Positions 10,702 through 36,254 of a stretch of DNA of 64,000 nucleotides are shown here, piece by piece. The position numbers and the translations under genes are program-made. The DNA comes from Dinoroseobacter sp. (GTDB taxonomy: Bacteria; Pseudomonadota; Alphaproteobacteria; Rhodobacterales; Rhodobacteraceae), in NCBI GenBank assembly GCA_017643385.1, contig JAEPNN010000001.1, positions 186,001 to 250,000 of the forward strand. Direction: 5' to 3'. The notes under the pieces are model-generated. The model ran no database searches and was not told the DNA's origin. It worked only from the letters and a program-made list of their open reading frames with translations. Every line of letters starts with the position of its first letter. Position 1 is the first letter of the stretch.

Positions 10702-11541
10702 ATGGCGTTGCTCAGCTTCGAAAGAAAATATCGCGTACGCGGTGGGACTCTGATCGGCGGAGATCTGTTCGACTTCTGGGTTGGACCCTTCTACGTCGGT
10801 TTTTTTGGCGTCACGACGCTCTTTTTTGCGGCCCTTGGAACAATCCTGATCTTTTACGGGGCTGCCATGCAGGGGACGTTCAACCCCTGGCTAATCAATA
10901 TTGCGCCCCCTGACCTTAGTTACGGTCTGGCGGCAGCTCCCTTGTTGGAAGGAGGGCTTTGGCAAGTAATCACCATCTGCGCGACAGGAGCTTTCATAAG
11001 CTGGGCGCTCAGAGAGGTTGAGATCTGCCGAAAACTTGGGATGGGCTATCATGTGCCCTTTGCCTTTGGTTTCGCAATCCTTGCTTACGTGACCCTCGTT
11101 ATTTTCCGACCGCTTCTTATGGGCGCATGGGGCCACGGTTTCCCGTATGGCATATTCAGCCATCTCGATTGGGTATCGAATACGGGCTACGCCTATCTAC
11201 ATTTCCACTACAACCCGGCGCATATGCTGGCGGTGACGCTGTTCTTCACCACCACCCTCGCGCTCGCCTTGCATGGGGCGCTGATCCTGTCGGCCGCCAA
11301 CCCCGAAAAAGGCGAGACGATGAAGACGCCGGATCACGAAGACACCTTCTTCCGCGATTTCATCGGCTATTCGATCGGACCACTCGGTATTCACCGTCTG
11401 GGGTGGTTGCTGGCGATCAACGCGGTGTTTTTCTCTGCTGTCTGCATCATCATTTCAGGCCCCGTTTGGACGCGCGGTTGGCCAGAATGGTGGAGCTGGT
11501 GGCTCGAGCTGCCGATCTGGGGCAGCCAAGTAGGGATTTAA
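10702..11541 (+). CDS. pufL: Photosynthetic reaction centre L subunit
   Basis: A 279-residue membrane subunit with five helices. It begins [15 protein letters not shown] and contains the L-chain landmarks [53 protein letters not shown] and the special-pair/iron region [22 protein letters not shown], with the iron ligand in [10 protein letters not shown]. It binds half the special pair, the accessory pigment, bacteriopheophytin and QB. The pufM ATG follows 3 bases after the stop. Confidence 0.97.
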
Positions 11542-11544
11542 GCC

Positions 11545-12531
11545 ATGATCACCGAATATCAGAATATCTTCACTCAAGTCCAAGTCCGCGGCCCTGCCGA
11601 GATGGGCACGGATGACTACGGCACCCTGACCGAGGATCGCAGCAAATCAGCGACGTTCTCGTCGCTGACAGGCTGGCTCGGTAACGCGCAGCTGGGGCCT
11701 GTGAACCTTGGTATGGTCGGGATTGCATCGCTCTTTGCAGGCGTGATCTGGTTCAACATTGTTGGGCTCAGCATGCTGGCACAGGTCGGTTGGTCGATCC
11801 CAGAGTTCCTGCGCCAGTTCTTCTGGCTGGCGCTGGAACCGCCAAGCCCGGAATACGGGCTACGAATGCCACCGCTGAATGACGGGGGGTGGTATATCAT
11901 TGCCAGCTTCTTCCTGTTGGTTTCGGTGATGGGCTGGTGGTACCGGTCTTGGCAGCTGGCGGCTGAACAGAAGATGGGCAAGCACGTCTTCTGGGCATTC
12001 GGCGCAGCGATCTGGCTGTTCCTTGTGCTGGGCCTGTTCCGTCCGATCCTGATGGGGTCCTGGAGCGAGGCTGTACCGTACGGCATATTCCCGCACCTTG
12101 ATTGGACCACAGCGTTTTCGATCCGCTACGGCAACCTGTACTACAACCCGTTCCACTGTCTCAGCATTGTGTTCCTGTATGGATCTGCCCTGCTGTTTGC
12201 CATGCATGGCGGTACCATTCTTGCGGTGACCCGATATGGCGGCGACCGTGAGCTTGAGCAGATCGTTGATCGCGGCACCGCGACCGAACGTGCAGCCCTG
12301 TTCTGGCGCTGGACTATGGGGTTCAACGCCACGATGGAGGGTATCCACCGATGGGCTTGGTGGTTCGCGGTTCTCACGCCCATCACGGGAGGCATCGGCA
12401 TCCTTTTGACCGGCACTGTCGTCGACAACTGGTTCATCTGGGCGCAGGAGCACAATTTTGCCCCGGCTTACGACGGCAGCTACGGCTATGACGCCTATGG
12501 CTCCTACGAAGCCTTCATCGGGAAGGAGTAA
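11545..12531 (+). CDS. pufM: Photosynthetic reaction centre M subunit
   Basis: A 328-residue partner of PufL. Family landmarks are [75 protein letters not shown] and the iron/QA segment [13 protein letters not shown]. The C-terminal tail ([18 protein letters not shown]) continues on the cytoplasmic/periplasmic face as in chains that dock a PufC cytochrome. There is no pufX after it; the next gene is pufC, 4 bases on. Confidence 0.97.
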
Positions 12532-12535
12532 AGCC

Positions 12536-13549
12536 ATGCTCGGAAACTGGAAACGTTTAGATACCTGGTTCTCGACCTGGAATAAGAACAACCCGACCGA
12601 CATCTATGGGCCCGTCATCGTGATGGGCACCTTAGGTGGGGCTTTGATTGCTGCGATTGCGTTGGTCAGCTTAGGTCAGCCCTTTAAAACCGATAGTATG
12701 CAAACAGGGCCGAGAGGCACCGGAATGTCAGTGCCCGAATTCGTAAGCGATCTTGCTGAGCCGGATCCGGGGATTGCTGCATATGCGGCAATCGATACCG
12801 ACGGCGATGCGGTGGCGGCGATGCGGGCCTGGACGGGTATTCCCACCTTGTTTGAGGACGAGGAGGATTATCAGACCATTGTTGCGCATCGCATGATTGA
12901 GATGACCCAGAATATCAACGAGAACTGGGATGCTCACGTCAATGCAAATGGCGAGGTCGGTGTAACCTGTTTCACATGCCATCGAGGGCAGGCTGTCCCC
13001 AGTGGCGTATGGTACAACATCACACCGGTGAACCAATCTATGGCTGGGTGGTCCAGCACTCAGAACATGGCAACCAGTCAAAGTCAGTATACTTCGCTGC
13101 CATCTGATGCGTTGCAAAGCTATCTGGCGGATTACGAACCGATCGGTGTTCATGATCTTGATAGCCGCGTACCCGGCGTGCCCGGGCAGGATGTGGCAGC
13201 GATCCAGAATGCGGAACGCACCTATTCGCTTATGAATTACTTTGCGAATTCGCTAGGTGTGAACTGCGTGTTCTGTCACAACTCGCGGGCTTTCTACGAC
13301 GCGGCTCAGGTGACTCCACAATGGGCAACCGCAAGCCTTGGGATTGCCATGGTGCAGGAACTGAACCTGGATTACCTGATCCCACTGGAAGAGGTTCTAC
13401 CACCTGAACGCCTTGGTCCGGTTCACGCCGATGCGCCCAAACTGGCCTGTATGACATGCCACAAGGGGTATCAGCAGCCATTGCAAGGCACCAACGTCAT
13501 TGCCGACTGGCCCGATCTTGCAACAATCGGTGCGTCAGTAGTGGACTAG
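12536..13549 (+). CDS. pufC: Reaction-centre-bound cytochrome c PufC (three heme motifs)
   Basis: Donates electrons from periplasmic carriers to the oxidised special pair. The 337-residue protein starts MLGNWKRLDTWFSTWNKNN and has one N-terminal membrane helix (VIVMGTLGGALIAAIALVSL) without a lipobox Cys, so it is anchored by the helix. Only three CxxCH sites are present: CFTCH (residues 145-149), CVFCH and CMTCH. The position where four-heme members carry the heme-1 site (before AHRMIEMTQNIN) reads WTGIPTLFEDE. This agrees with the triheme PufC known from Rhodovulum. The start at 12536 is preferred over an upstream frame inside pufM. Confidence 0.95.
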   Translation: MLGNWKRLDTWFSTWNKNNPTDIYGPVIVMGTLGGALIAAIALVSLGQPFKTDSMQTGPRGTGMSVPEFVSDLAEPDPGIAAYAAIDTDGDAVAAMRAWTGIPTLFEDEEDYQTIVAHRMIEMTQNINENWDAHVNANGEVGVTCFTCHRGQAVPSGVWYNITPVNQSMAGWSSTQNMATSQSQYTSLPSDALQSYLADYEPIGVHDLDSRVPGVPGQDVAAIQNAERTYSLMNYFANSLGVNCVFCHNSRAFYDAAQVTPQWATASLGIAMVQELNLDYLIPLEEVLPPERLGPVHADAPKLACMTCHKGYQQPLQGTNVIADWPDLATIGASVVD

Positions 13550-13706: not shown

Positions 13707-15632
13707 ATGACTAGCGAAACGACAACCACACCACACCTTGATCGCATAGTCGGTCCGTCTGACCTGAAGCACATGAAGGACGCAGAACTTGCCGTGCTGG
13801 CAGGTGAGCTGCGCAACGAAGTGATCTCGGTGGTTTCCGAAACCGGGGGGCATTTGGGATCCTCTCTGGGTGTGGTCGAGCTGACCGTAGCGTTGCACGC
13901 TGTTTTCAACGCCCCGATGGACAAGTTGATTTGGGATGTCGGTCATCAATGTTATCCGCACAAAGTTCTGACCGGTCGCCGTCACCGGATGCGGACCTTG
14001 CGTCAAAAGGACGGCCTGTCAGGTTTCACGAAACGTGACGAAAGCGAGTTTGATCCATTTGGGGCCGCACATTCCTCGACCTCCATCTCAGCAGCATTGG
14101 GCTTTGCTGTCGGGCGTGACATGGGCCGTCCAACGGGGGATGCAATTGCGGTTATTGGGGATGGGTCGATCAGCGCGGGTATGGCTTACGAGGCCTTGAA
14201 CAACGCAGGTGCCGAGGGGCGCCGTCTGATCGTCGTGCTCAACGACAATGAAATGTCGATTGCGCCGCCCGTAGGGGCGATGTCGACATATCTATCGGGT
14301 CTTTATACCGAGCAGATGCTTAGCATGAAGGACCTGGCTGAGGGTGTGGAATCGCTATTACCCCCGCCTATGCGCGATGGCGCGCGGCGCGCACGTCAGA
14401 TGGTAACCGGGCAGGGGTCCTCTGGCACGTTGTTTGAGGAACTGGGCTTTGAATACATGGGGCCTGTCGATGGCCATGACGTTCGACAGTTGCTGCGGGT
14501 GTTCCGCGCGGCGCGTGCGCGCGCAAAAGGACCGGTTCTGATCCATTGCTGTACTGTGAAGGGGAAAGGCTATTCGCCCGCCGAGAACAGCACGGACAAA
14601 TACCATGGTGTTTCCAAGTTTGATGTGGCCACTGGCGCACAGGTCAAATCGAAACCCAATGCCCCGAGTTATACGTCGGTCTTCGGAAACGCGCTAACTG
14701 ATGCCGCTGCGCGGGACCCTAACATTGTTGCGATAACTGCAGCTATGCCGTCTGGCACAGGGGTGAACCTGATGGCTAAGCGTTTTCCCGACCGGGTCTT
14801 TGATGTTGGGATCGCCGAACAGCACGGCGTCACGTTTGCAGCTGGAATGGCCGCAAGCGGCTTGAAACCGTTCTGCGCAATTTATTCGACCTTCCTTCAA
14901 CGAGGATACGATCAGATCGTCCATGACGTGGCACTCCAAAAGCTGCCGGTTCGGTTCGCCATCGACCGGGCTGGGCTTGTTGGGGCAGATGGGGCAACCC
15001 ATGCAGGATCATTCGACATCGCATATCTTTCGAACCTACCTGGATTCACAGTGATGGCTGCCGCCGATGAGGCCGAACTTGTGCACATGGTCGAAACCGC
15101 TGCGGCTTATGACGAAGGCCCGATCGCCTTCCGATATCCGCGTGGAGCCGGTGTCGGGGCAGCGCTGCCCGAGCAGGGTAAAGTACTGGAGATCGGAAAA
15201 GGGCGGATTATGCGCGAAGGCACCGATCTAGCGATCCTGAGTCTTGGGACGCATCTGGAACACGCTCAGGCCGCAGCTGCTTTGCTGGAGGCCGAGGGCG
15301 TTAGTGTGACCGTGGCTGATGCGCGTTTTGCCAAACCCCTCGACACGCAGTTAGTTGAAGAATTGGCCCGTGATCATGCTGGGCTGATTACGCTCGAACA
15401 GGGGGCCGAAGGCGGTTTTGGATCAGTTGTCTTGCACCATCTCGCGCGGCGCGGGCTTTTGGACAAAGGGTTGGCGGTGCGGCCGCTGACGTTGCCGGAT
15501 CGGTTCATCCACCAAGGCTCGGCGGATCAGATGTATGAAGATGCAGGCCTCACCGTCGACGAGATTTGCATAACCTGTCTGAACATCCTTTTTCCCGACG
15601 GGAAGGTTGTCGAATTTCCGTCACGCGCTTGA
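13707..15632 (+). CDS. dxs: 1-deoxy-D-xylulose-5-phosphate synthase (photosynthesis-cluster copy)
   Basis: Makes DXP from pyruvate and glyceraldehyde 3-phosphate, the entry step of the MEP isoprenoid pathway. The 641-residue protein has the TPP-binding segment [20 protein letters not shown], the transketolase pyrimidine domain ([21 protein letters not shown]) and the C-terminal domain ([19 protein letters not shown]). It lies 157 bases after pufC on the same strand with a GGGGAGG 5 bases before the ATG, so it likely reads through from puf and raises precursor supply for carotenoids and phytol. A second, very similar dxs is at 34326-36254. Confidence 0.95.
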
Positions 15633-15645
15633 CGCTCTGATCGAT

Positions 15646-16533
15646 CTAGGCGTCCGCTGCCAAAAATGAAACCATCTGTATCTTGGCTTCGTCGATGTCT
15701 CTGGCGATGGCATCTACACCGATCAGCTCGATGATCGGGCGTAGGGTATGAACCTCGGCGCCGCTGACGATAATTGGTGTCTGTGGACAGGCAATATGTA
15801 GCGCGACCACCAAGCGTGATAGCGCATCGACTGAGTGCTCGCCGGCTATTGAAAGACCGACAACAGAACAGTTCGAGGCCGCGATCGTGGCAACAAGCGT
15901 ATCGTGATCAAGGCCAGTTGAAAGATCGATCCTCCACCCCTCTTTGCGCATCAAATCGGCGGCCATCTGAATGCCAATTATGTGGGTTTCCCCAGGAACC
16001 GACGCAAAAATCGCTGTCTTGTCTGTGCGGAGGTGCTTTGGACGGAAGAGGTGGCGCATGCTTCGCATAATCGCGAGTATCCTACCTGTTCCAATCGTGA
16101 CCTCGGCAAATGATAATCGATCCTCGACCCACCAGTCACCTAAGCGTCTTGCGGCGGCTGACAGATACTTGAGATAAACAACATCCGGTGGCACGCCCAC
16201 GGCGCGCAGCTCGGTTATGAGTTCGGCTGCATCGGTGTCACCATGGCCGACCAAAGCAAGGCAAAGCGTTTCAAGATCCCCAGAGTTTGGCTCTTGTGGA
16301 AGATCACCAAGCTCGCGCTCTTTCAAAGTTAATCGGTATATGACTTCGTTGGCGATCGATTTCACGAGGTCCGAGGGCAGCCGTTCTTTCAGCTGCCTTA
16401 AATCTTCTTGGCGTTGCGCATACGTCTGAAAAACGATTGCGCGCTTTGAAGTGTCTTCTGGACCCAACAGCGTCCTCCCCTGACCGCTGTGTTTCTGAGC
16501 GAACCTATGGTCTGGCACTTCTAAGGTCACCAC
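15646..16533 (-). CDS. AerR/PpaA-like cobalamin-binding regulator
   Basis: A 295-residue protein with a B12-binding-like C-terminal half. The N-terminal helical half has the segment RLGDWWVEDRLSFAEVTIGTGRI, typical of AerR/PpaA and related B12-binding regulators, where the Trp and acidic residues cover the ligand. The next domain begins AIFASVPGETHIIGIQMAADL; the His in GETHIIG sits where the DxHxxG cobalt-ligand His is found, though the Asp is Glu. AerR/PpaA works with CrtJ/PpsR to set photosynthesis gene output by light and B12. It starts with GTG and converges on dxs, 13 bases apart. Whether this is the main AerR or a paralogue cannot be told here. Confidence 0.8.
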   Translation of the reverse strand: MVTLEVPDHRFAQKHSGQGRTLLGPEDTSKRAIVFQTYAQRQEDLRQLKERLPSDLVKSIANEVIYRLTLKERELGDLPQEPNSGDLETLCLALVGHGDTDAAELITELRAVGVPPDVVYLKYLSAAARRLGDWWVEDRLSFAEVTIGTGRILAIMRSMRHLFRPKHLRTDKTAIFASVPGETHIIGIQMAADLMRKEGWRIDLSTGLDHDTLVATIAASNCSVVGLSIAGEHSVDALSRLVVALHIACPQTPIIVSGAEVHTLRPIIELIGVDAIARDIDEAKIQMVSFLAADA

Positions 16534-16791
16534 GCCTAGGCCTGCTTTTTGTTTATGTGCGGCTGGTCAAATCGTTCCTCCGACGTTGACTGGCGTGCCA
16601 TGGGCATAAACGGTTCTTGAGACTGATAACGAAATTAGCTTCACCGGTTGGGTAGATCGCGAACGCGTCGTTGCGCTGATATGCCCCTTGGCAGAACCTG
16701 AGTTACACCTTCCCTTCTTGGGTTGTAGGGTTGGCATCCCGGGGGTGACCAGTTAGAACTTTCCACTACGTATAAATACGTATAAAGGCTT
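16534..16791. other. Intergenic leader between two minus-strand regulators
   Basis: About 258 bases with no gene. It lies upstream of the AerR-like gene and downstream of the FixJ-like gene. A direct repeat (TACGTATAAATACGTATAAA, 16772-16791) abuts the FixJ-like stop. No TGT-N12-ACA operator, terminator with T-run or clear promoter was found by eye. Confidence 0.5.
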
Positions 16792-17394
16792 TTATCCCAT
16801 CATTCTAAGGAGATCAGCGATTCCGCGCGCCTGCATTTTTTCTCGTATTCGCGCCCTGTGAACTTCGATTGTCCTGCGGCTGACACTTAGAACGTCTGCA
16901 ATTTCCTTGTTCATCTTCCCCTCAAGCAGATGAGACAGCACCTCGCGCTCTCGCTCGGTCAGGTTTCCAAGCCGCTGGGCAACGACTGTTTTCGATGGCA
17001 GGGGCAGCGGACGGCTGGCAACTACAGCGAGGGCCTGACGCACGGAGTCCAGAACTCTTTCGCAGTCAGTCGGGTCCTCAATAAAATCATAGGCACCCGC
17101 GCGCAGTGCTTGAACCGCGACTGAAACGCTTGCGTTCCCCGTTATAAATATGACTGGGGTCGAGGCGTTTATTTCGTTGAGATAGGCTTGCAATTCCAGA
17201 CCGTTAAGGCCAGGCAATTCAACGCTTGAGACAAGGACGGTGGGTGCGTTTCGGTCAAACGTCTCTAAGAATGCCTCTGCAGAGATAAATACACGCGTGT
17301 GAATACCGTCTGCGGCCAGCAGAGAAGCCAATGTGCAAAGCCCGCCGTCGTCTGCCACGATGTCAACGGTCTTAGTCGTAATGATGCGGGACAA
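16792..17394 (-). CDS. FixJ-like LuxR-family regulator with degenerate receiver
   Basis: A 200-residue two-domain protein. The N-terminal receiver fold aligns with FixJ, but the phospho-acceptor Asp is Ser57 (VLVSSVELPGLNGLEL) and the conserved Lys before Pro is Asp107 (FIEDPT); the acidic pair Asp15-Asp16 and Thr85 remain. The C-terminal helix-turn-helix is intact (LTEREREVLSHLLEGKMNKE, then SRRTIEVHRARIREKM). It should bind DNA without phosphorylation by a normal histidine kinase; none is nearby. Its place between the puf-side AerR-like gene and tRNA-Leu suggests a role in photosynthesis control, which is an inference. No ligand-binding domain is visible. Confidence 0.85.
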   Translation of the reverse strand: MSRIITTKTVDIVADDGGLCTLASLLAADGIHTRVFISAEAFLETFDRNAPTVLVSSVELPGLNGLELQAYLNEINASTPVIFITGNASVSVAVQALRAGAYDFIEDPTDCERVLDSVRQALAVVASRPLPLPSKTVVAQRLGNLTEREREVLSHLLEGKMNKEIADVLSVSRRTIEVHRARIREKMQARGIADLLRMMG

Positions 17395-17558: not shown

Positions 17559-17645
17559 TGGTGCCCAGGAGAGGACTCGAACCTCCACGTCCATACGGAC
17601 ACTAGCACCTGAAGCTAGCGCGTCTACCAATTCCGCCACCTGGGC
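17559..17645 (-). tRNA. tRNA-Leu (CAG)
   Basis: The minus strand reads GCCCAGGTGGCGGAATTGG at the 5' end and closes with CCTGGGC A CCA, so acceptor stem and CCA are encoded. The anticodon loop has CTTCAGGTG (anticodon CAG), a long variable arm is present as in leucine tRNAs, and the T arm reads GGTTCGAGTCC. 87 bases with CCA. Confidence 0.95.
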
Positions 17646-34325: not shown

Positions 34326-36254
34326 TCAGCGTGCGCCGCTTCGACCCCGGACAACCCCGATGTCGAGCATGTCCAGAACCTTTGCTTCGATATCTTCCGC
34401 GTTCAGTCCTGCCACGTCGTACATATCCCGAGGGTTCGCATGATCGATGAAGGTATCTGGCAGAACCATAGATCTGAACTTCAGCCCCTGATCAAAGACA
34501 CCTTCCTCGGACAAAAGCTGTGCGACGTGGCTGCCAAAGCCTCCGACCGAGCCCTCTTCGATTGTGATCAGCGCTTCATGGTCGCTTGCCAGCTTCAAGA
34601 TGAGCTCTGTGTCGAGTGGTTTGGCGAACCGAGCATCTGCAATGGTTGGCGTGATACCCCGCGCGGCAAGCGCTTCGCAGGCTGCTTCGACTTCTGCCAA
34701 GCGCGTTCCAAATGACAGGATTGCGACGGTCGTTCCCTGCTTCACGATGCGCCCCTTCCCGATCTCAAGGATTTCGCCCTGCTCGGGAAGTTCGCATCCA
34801 ACGCCTTCACCCCGTGGGAAGCGGAAGGCAATCGGACCGTCGTCATAGGCCGCAGCCGTCGCCACCATATGGCGCAATTCTGCTTCGTTTGCAGCCGCCA
34901 TGACCACCATGTTGGGAAGCGCGCTGAGATACACAATGTCGAAGCTGCCAGCATGCGTGGCGCCATCTGCCCCGACAAGACCCGCGCGATCGATGGCAAA
35001 ACGAACGGGCAGGTTCTGGAGCGCCACATCATGAACAATCTGGTCGTAACCACGCTGCAGGAACGTAGAATACATCGTGCAGAATGGCTTCATCCCGCCA
35101 GCGGCAAGGCCTGCGCAAAATGTAACGCCATGCTGTTCGGCGATCCCGACATCGAAGGTACGCGACGCATAGCGCTGGGCAAACAGATCCAGCCCTGTGC
35201 CTGACGGCATCGCAGCCGTTATGGCGACGATCTTTGGATCTCGTGCGGCCTCGTCGATCAAGGTGTCTGCAAAAACCTTAGTGTAGCTTGGTGCGTTGGA
35301 GAGCGCTTTGTTCTGTTCGCCAGTAACTACGTCAAATTTGCCGGTTGCATGACCCCTGTCGGGTCTGTGCTCTGCATAGCCTTTGCCTTTCACGGTAATC
35401 GCGTGGATCAAAATGGGGCCATCTGCACGGTGTTTCACAGTGCGCAAGACGTTCAGAAGCTGGTCCATATCGTGACCATCGATCGGTCCGACATAAGAAA
35501 ATCCAAGCTCTTCGAACAAAGTTCCGCCGACCGTCATCCCCTTCAGCATCTCTTTGGCGCGCTTTGCCCCTTCCTGAAACGGAGGTGGTAAGAATGAAAC
35601 AGCACCTTTTGCAGCGGCCTTCAGTTCCTGGAACGGGGCTCCGGCATAGAGGCGCGACAAATAACTGGACATGGCGCCAACGGGCGGTGCGATGCTCATT
35701 TCGTTGTCATTCAGGATAACGATCAGCCGTTTTCCTAGGTGACCTGCATTGTTCAGCGCCTCGTAAGCCATACCCGCAGAGAGCGCCCCGTCCCCAATGA
35801 CAGCAATTGCGTCCCCCAAACCTTCCGGACAACTTCCCCCAAGATCGCGAGCGACCGCGAACCCGAGCGCGGCCGAGATCGAGGTGGAGCTATGCGCAGC
35901 ACCGAATGGATCAAAGGGAGATTCCGTGCGCTTGGTAAACCCGGACAGGCCGTCCTTCATCCGAAGTGTGCGGATCCGATCCCGACGTCCTGTCAGGATC
36001 TTGTGGGGATAGCACTGGTGCGACACGTCCCAAATGATCTTGTCTTTGGGCGCATCGAAAACGTGATGCAGTGCAACCGTCATCTCAACAACGCCAAGGC
36101 CCGCGCCCAGATGCCCACCTGTTACGGAAACGGCGCTGATGGTCTCCGCGCGCAGTTCGCGTGCAAGCTGGGAAAGTTGTGCATCACTGAGGCCTTTCAG
36201 GTCGGCAGGCGTGTGCACCATATCCAGCAGTGGGGTATCAGGTCGGTCGGACAT
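34326..36254 (-). CDS. dxs: 1-deoxy-D-xylulose-5-phosphate synthase (housekeeping copy)
   Basis: A 642-residue DXP synthase, collinear with the copy at 13707-15632 over its whole length (for example [20 protein letters not shown] against [20 protein letters not shown]). TPP-binding [20 protein letters not shown] is present. It is the last gene of a minus-strand unit SDR-hdaH-xseB-ispA-dxs that joins the first MEP step with farnesyl diphosphate synthesis, the common alphaproteobacterial housekeeping context. The two copies probably separate constitutive from phototrophic demand. Confidence 0.95.

Follow-up and report, generated by a model that had tools for sequence, protein, structure and literature searches.

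The window (the whole 64,000-nucleotide stretch of Dinoroseobacter sp. DNA analysed here) contains a gene for a FixJ-like response regulator, followed on the same strand by aerR2, a gene for a cobalamin-binding protein. As the earlier note described, the pair stands beyond the pufL-pufM-pufC-dxs genes, which run on the opposite strand:

10702..13549, plus strand: pufL, pufM and pufC (context)
13707..15632, plus strand: dxs, convergent with aerR2 (context)
15646..16533, minus strand: aerR2, AerR/PpaA-like, with cobalamin-binding domain PF02310 and motif E182-x-H184-x-x-G187
16763..16783, minus strand: conserved imperfect palindrome ATACGTATTTATACGTAGTGG, a putative binding site of the FixJ-like protein before aerR2
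16766..16783, minus strand: core of the palindrome, ATACGTATTTATACGTAG
16792..17394, minus strand: FixJ-like regulator gene, encoding a pseudo-receiver and a LuxR/GerE DNA-binding domain
about residues 9-122 of the regulator: pseudo-receiver, with altered residues A14, S57 and D107
residues 144-199 of the regulator: LuxR/GerE DNA-binding domain
17559..17645, minus strand: tRNA-Leu(CAG), adjoining the FixJ-like gene on its upstream side, at the place of bphP in other genomes (context)

The FixJ-like gene encodes 200 amino acids from a TTG start preceded by GAGGG, and its product has the receiver plus LuxR/GerE architecture of FixJ-type response regulators (Pfam Response_reg, 60 bits; GerE, 69 bits). 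The top NCBIfam model is FixJ (NF006900) at 167.2 bits, below the curated cut-off of 255, and the nearest solved chains are 1yio, a response regulator, and 5xso, full-length FixJ. In an AlphaFold2 model built with four sequences (mean pLDDT 79), strands alternate with helices across the receiver region, and the C-terminal part is helical. Alignment with Sinorhizobium meliloti FixJ places S57 at the phospho-acceptor D54 and D107 at K104, just as the earlier note had it. The acidic pair and the next residue read A-D-D, the first pocket acid being replaced by Ala14, and one residue is deleted after the phosphorylation pocket; Thr82, Phe101 and the DNA-binding domain are retained, the completeness of the latter having also been correctly recognized. 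Judging from the other FixJ-type paralogues fetched, 34/35 of which keep both Asp and Lys (the sole exception is a partly aligned sequence), Ser57/Asp107 is not a chance pattern. On these residues, standard Asp phosphorylation is predicted to be impossible for this receiver. Lacking acceptor Asp, switch Lys and one of the pocket acids, the regulator is probably phosphorylation-independent; the earlier reading to that effect is upheld as regards the unfitness of the receiver (S57, D107, A14), and its interpretation overall is partly supported.

The genus, its family and three other genera were searched, and one pattern scan was run over an 84,980-species genome collection; this yielded 17 orthologues, window gene included, which form one clade (99/99) separate from other FixJ-type proteins. 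All 17 belong to phototrophs: pufM is present in every host genome, and G526, from the same genus as G398, has neither the FixJ-like gene nor pufM. The pair formed by the FixJ-like gene and aerR2 is absent from G001, G003 and G004, phototrophs of the window genome's own genus, and none of the other orthologue-bearing genomes is a close relative of the window genome. No orthologue was found on plasmids, where, among the matches listed, identity never exceeded 43.3%. The orthologues keep the Asp in 12/17 cases and the Lys in 16/17, so that Ser57/Asp107 appears private to the window lineage and is ruled out as the family trait for which the earlier note had looked.

Gene order ties the regulator to aerR2, which lies directly downstream on the same strand in 17/17 orthologues; attention to the AerR-like neighbour was thus well placed. 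The conserved puf-dxs linkage that was proposed alongside it is ruled out. The photosynthesis gene cluster contains or borders the pair in 14/17 genomes, and most relatives have it near ppsR or beyond idi, positions from which we conclude that the gene is linked with aerR2 and the cluster. In ten genomes (G151, G073, G398, G519, G520, G525 and G527-G530) aerR2 is convergent with ppsR. It is not directly beside ppsR in four: in G422, G423 and G424 the pair is a few genes beyond the ppsR position, and in the window genome it is located after dxs. The remaining three genomes (G442, G500 and G506), all kinase-bearing, have no searched-for cluster gene within the fetched 19-20 kb around the pair.

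Several side observations concern the surrounding genes. Outside the window, the window genome holds two ppaA-ppsR pairs (C25:118204-121823 and C25:172790-178876), each with idi nearby, and its two PpaA proteins are strongly divergent from each other. A second dxs within the window, at 34326..36254 on the minus strand, has 69% identity to the reference dxs used for the neighbourhood search. In G422 (Roseovarius), a 250-residue PpsR fragment, whose N- and C-terminal parts matched separately, lies between idi and bphP (C8:37051-37803; locus L113, 17051-17803).

Directly upstream of the FixJ-like gene, a bacteriophytochrome kinase gene (bphP) is full-length in 9/17 genomes, shortened in G151 and missing from 7/17. 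By Pfam, full-length products (three proteins tested) have the domain order PAS_2-GAF-PHY-HisKA-HATPase, and all nine share the N-terminal Cys plus the PASDIP and ELNQPL motifs. The G151 gene (L049:10125-11342, minus strand) is reduced to PHY-HisKA-HATPase and thus lacks PAS-GAF, the chromophore-binding domain; its receiver partner is intact. A kinase therefore adjoins ten of the orthologues, and no cognate histidine kinase stands next to the FixJ-like gene in the window genome. No bacteriophytochrome was found elsewhere in the window genome, G073 or G398, the search of the window genome returning generic kinase-domain matches only, and no bphP remnant was detected at E 1 upstream of the FixJ-like gene in kinase-less genomes. 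The window regulator probably once obeyed a red-light sensor.

Kinase loss and receiver damage coincide across the family: the receiver is intact (Asp, Lys, Thr and acidic pair) in 10/10 genomes with a kinase and damaged in 7/7 without one, an association with a raw Fisher p of 5e-5 that represents only three independent losses. We count three losses rather than seven because kinase-less genomes fall at three separate places in the AerR2 tree, with G398 and G530 beside the kinase-bearing G527 and G529. The damage differs among them: A-D-D with Ser for Asp and Asp for Lys in the window genome; D-G-D with Glu in G073, G519, G520 and G525; and altered pocket acids with Thr replaced by Ala in G398 and G530, which retain Asp and Lys. 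Branch lengths for receiver, DNA-binding domain and AerR2 (1.46, 0.40 and 0.58 for the window genome; 0.88, 0.03 and 0.40 for G398 plus G530; 0.66, 0.49 and 0.57 for the G073 group) indicate that the receiver evolved faster than the remainder. This is clearest in the window genome and in G398 plus G530; the G073 group shows less contrast, with the DNA-binding domain and AerR2 evolving at nearly the pace of the receiver.

The neighbouring AerR2 has the B12-binding domain with ExHxxG that typifies the AerR/PpaA family. The motif (E182, H184 and G187 in the window protein) is invariant in 17/17, and in Rhodobacter capsulatus AerR it binds cobalamin (PMC6199135). That protein (7te2) is the closest solved match to AerR2 by sequence and fold, with a poor superposition (TM 0.36/0.51, rmsd 15 A). 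AerR2 proteins form a clade of their own (100/99), apart from the PpaA encoded beside ppsR. By analogy with AerR/PpaA, AerR2 may bind cobalamin and modulate PpsR/CrtJ.

The palindrome lies just after the stop codon of the FixJ-like gene, between it and aerR2; in the G073 group its half-sites are of the TAAGTA type. When each genome was scored with a profile built without its own clade, 16/17 genomes had the top site of their fetched sequence (12-144 kb per genome) in the gap separating the FixJ-like gene from aerR2. In the window genome, the scan took in 530 kb of contig C25 (full length 583 kb), or about 15% of the genome. There the box scored 27.6, whereas 15 random sequences of 530 kb peaked at 20.0, and it was the only strong candidate site. 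The next best distinct site on C25 (20.2 bits, C25:478702), considered as a second strong box, lies inside a 947-residue open reading frame and is probably due to chance. PpsR sites of the form TGT-N12-ACA are not enriched between the FixJ-like gene and aerR2 (1 seen versus 1.5 expected). FixJ itself has a SELEX consensus of GTAMGTAG and binds 18-bp imperfect palindromes (PMC4999443), both of which the conserved box resembles. The FixJ-like protein is probably the factor that binds the box, though the box could instead serve another factor.

Box-like sequences were also seen between ppaA and ppsR in G398, G527 and G529, and in G530, the exception among the 17 genomes, the top site lies just before ppsR. 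This second copy before ppsR in one genus suggests that ppsR may be an additional target there.

Taken together, the FixJ-like protein is probably the orphaned regulator of an ancestral bphP-fixJ-aerR2 operon, now active without being phosphorylated and probably influencing PpsR control by way of aerR2. The ancestral operon would have encoded a bacteriophytochrome kinase, the FixJ-like regulator and AerR2 as part of the Roseobacter-group photosynthesis gene cluster. Going by domain content and gene order, red/far-red light in intact members would cause the phytochrome kinase to phosphorylate the FixJ-like regulator, which would in turn act on aerR2 and through it on PpsR-controlled genes. With the kinase gone from the window genome, the regulator would act without phosphate, most likely binding the palindrome behind its own gene and so setting aerR2 expression; the AerR2 product may then modulate PpsR or its target genes in the manner of AerR/PpaA. 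Within this account, the observed part comprises the orthology, the gene order, the coincidence of a missing kinase with a damaged site, the faster change of the receiver and the conservation of the box; from these we infer binding to the box, the direction of regulation and the effect on pigment genes. The account is weakened by the retention of Asp and Lys in G398 and G530 and by the location of the operon away from the cluster in three kinase-bearing genomes.

Alternatively, AerR2 may be the new input to the regulator. AerR2 would contact the pseudo-receiver directly and thereby place the FixJ-like protein under the gating of cobalamin and light, much as CrtJ/PpsR is gated by AerR/PpaA proteins. 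This reading is compatible with orphaning as the origin of the gene but proposes another mode of control for the protein. AerR/PpaA proteins work by binding a DNA-binding partner (PMC10890935), and the universal adjacency of aerR2, its retention upon kinase loss and the invariance of the cobalamin motif are all consistent with such contact; however, PpsR and PpaA are likewise encoded in these genomes, so that PpsR would suit AerR2 just as well as a partner, and we consider this alternative unlikely. Equally conjectural, and only slightly less doubtful, is the broader idea that repeated bphP loss gave the receiver, formerly a phosphate switch, a new role as a module that docks or senses AerR2 as a cobalamin photoreceptor, which would convert a red-light two-component system into a B12-gated, phosphorylation-independent switch for photosynthesis genes.

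It is more doubtful still that the FixJ-like gene is a relic, decaying neutrally since kinase loss with no regulation left. The long tree branch to the window protein (1.42), the TTG start, and the one-residue deletion and loss of three active-site residues would suit such decay, but the open reading frame is full, the DNA-binding domain is 80% identical to that of G423, and both the box and AerR2 have been retained. Moreover, receiver dN/dS is 0.05-0.20 in kinase-less pairs of lineages other than that of the window, so those receivers are under selection. Phosphate arriving by another route, such as from a non-cognate kinase acting on another residue, is highly improbable: the window genome has further histidine kinases, but its receiver retains neither the acceptor Asp nor the switch Lys and lacks one pocket acid as well.

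The orphaned regulator and its intact relatives resemble several known systems in part. They share with FixLJ the receiver plus LuxR-type domain, a candidate palindromic GTAMGTAG-like site and, in the relatives, a partner kinase with an ELNQPL-type H-box. They differ in that the family's partner is a bacteriophytochrome rather than FixL, in the linkage of the gene with aerR2 and the photosynthesis gene cluster, and, for the window protein, in the lost active site and a score below the NCBIfam FixJ cut-off. AerR2 matches the AerR/PpaA antirepressors, which act with CrtJ/PpsR, in its domain, its ExHxxG motif (PMC6199135) and its nearest structure, but it is additional to the PpaA beside ppsR and stands behind a FixJ-like gene. 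Bacteriophytochromes also control photosystem genes in the Lhf system of Rhodopseudomonas palustris (BphP2/BphP3, LhfA-E) and in BphP-PpsR2 of R. palustris and Bradyrhizobium; however, the target of Lhf is the LH4 operon, and the part of its description available to us mentions no AerR-like member (PMC6879726), and BphP-PpsR2 operates through contact with PpsR2 (PMC5362033). The PpsR-PpaA-LdaP system of Dinoroseobacter shibae similarly places a roseobacter photosynthesis gene cluster under light and cobalamin control, but no FixJ, LuxR or phytochrome component is named in it (PMC10890935), and none appears in the available portion of the D. shibae cluster gene list (PMC6052148). The bphP/FixJ-like/AerR2 arrangement was not found described in the open-access literature searched, which does not prove its absence; the related parts (Lhf, BphP-PpsR2 and LdaP-PpaA-PpsR) are.

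For aerobic anoxygenic phototrophs, these data point to a light-control module that would combine a bacteriophytochrome, a FixJ-like regulator and a second cobalamin protein, tied to PpsR control. The family also offers a natural repeated experiment: the kinase was lost on three separate occasions, each accompanied by phosphorylation-site damage, and through each loss the DNA-binding domain, the partner gene aerR2 and the candidate target site persisted.
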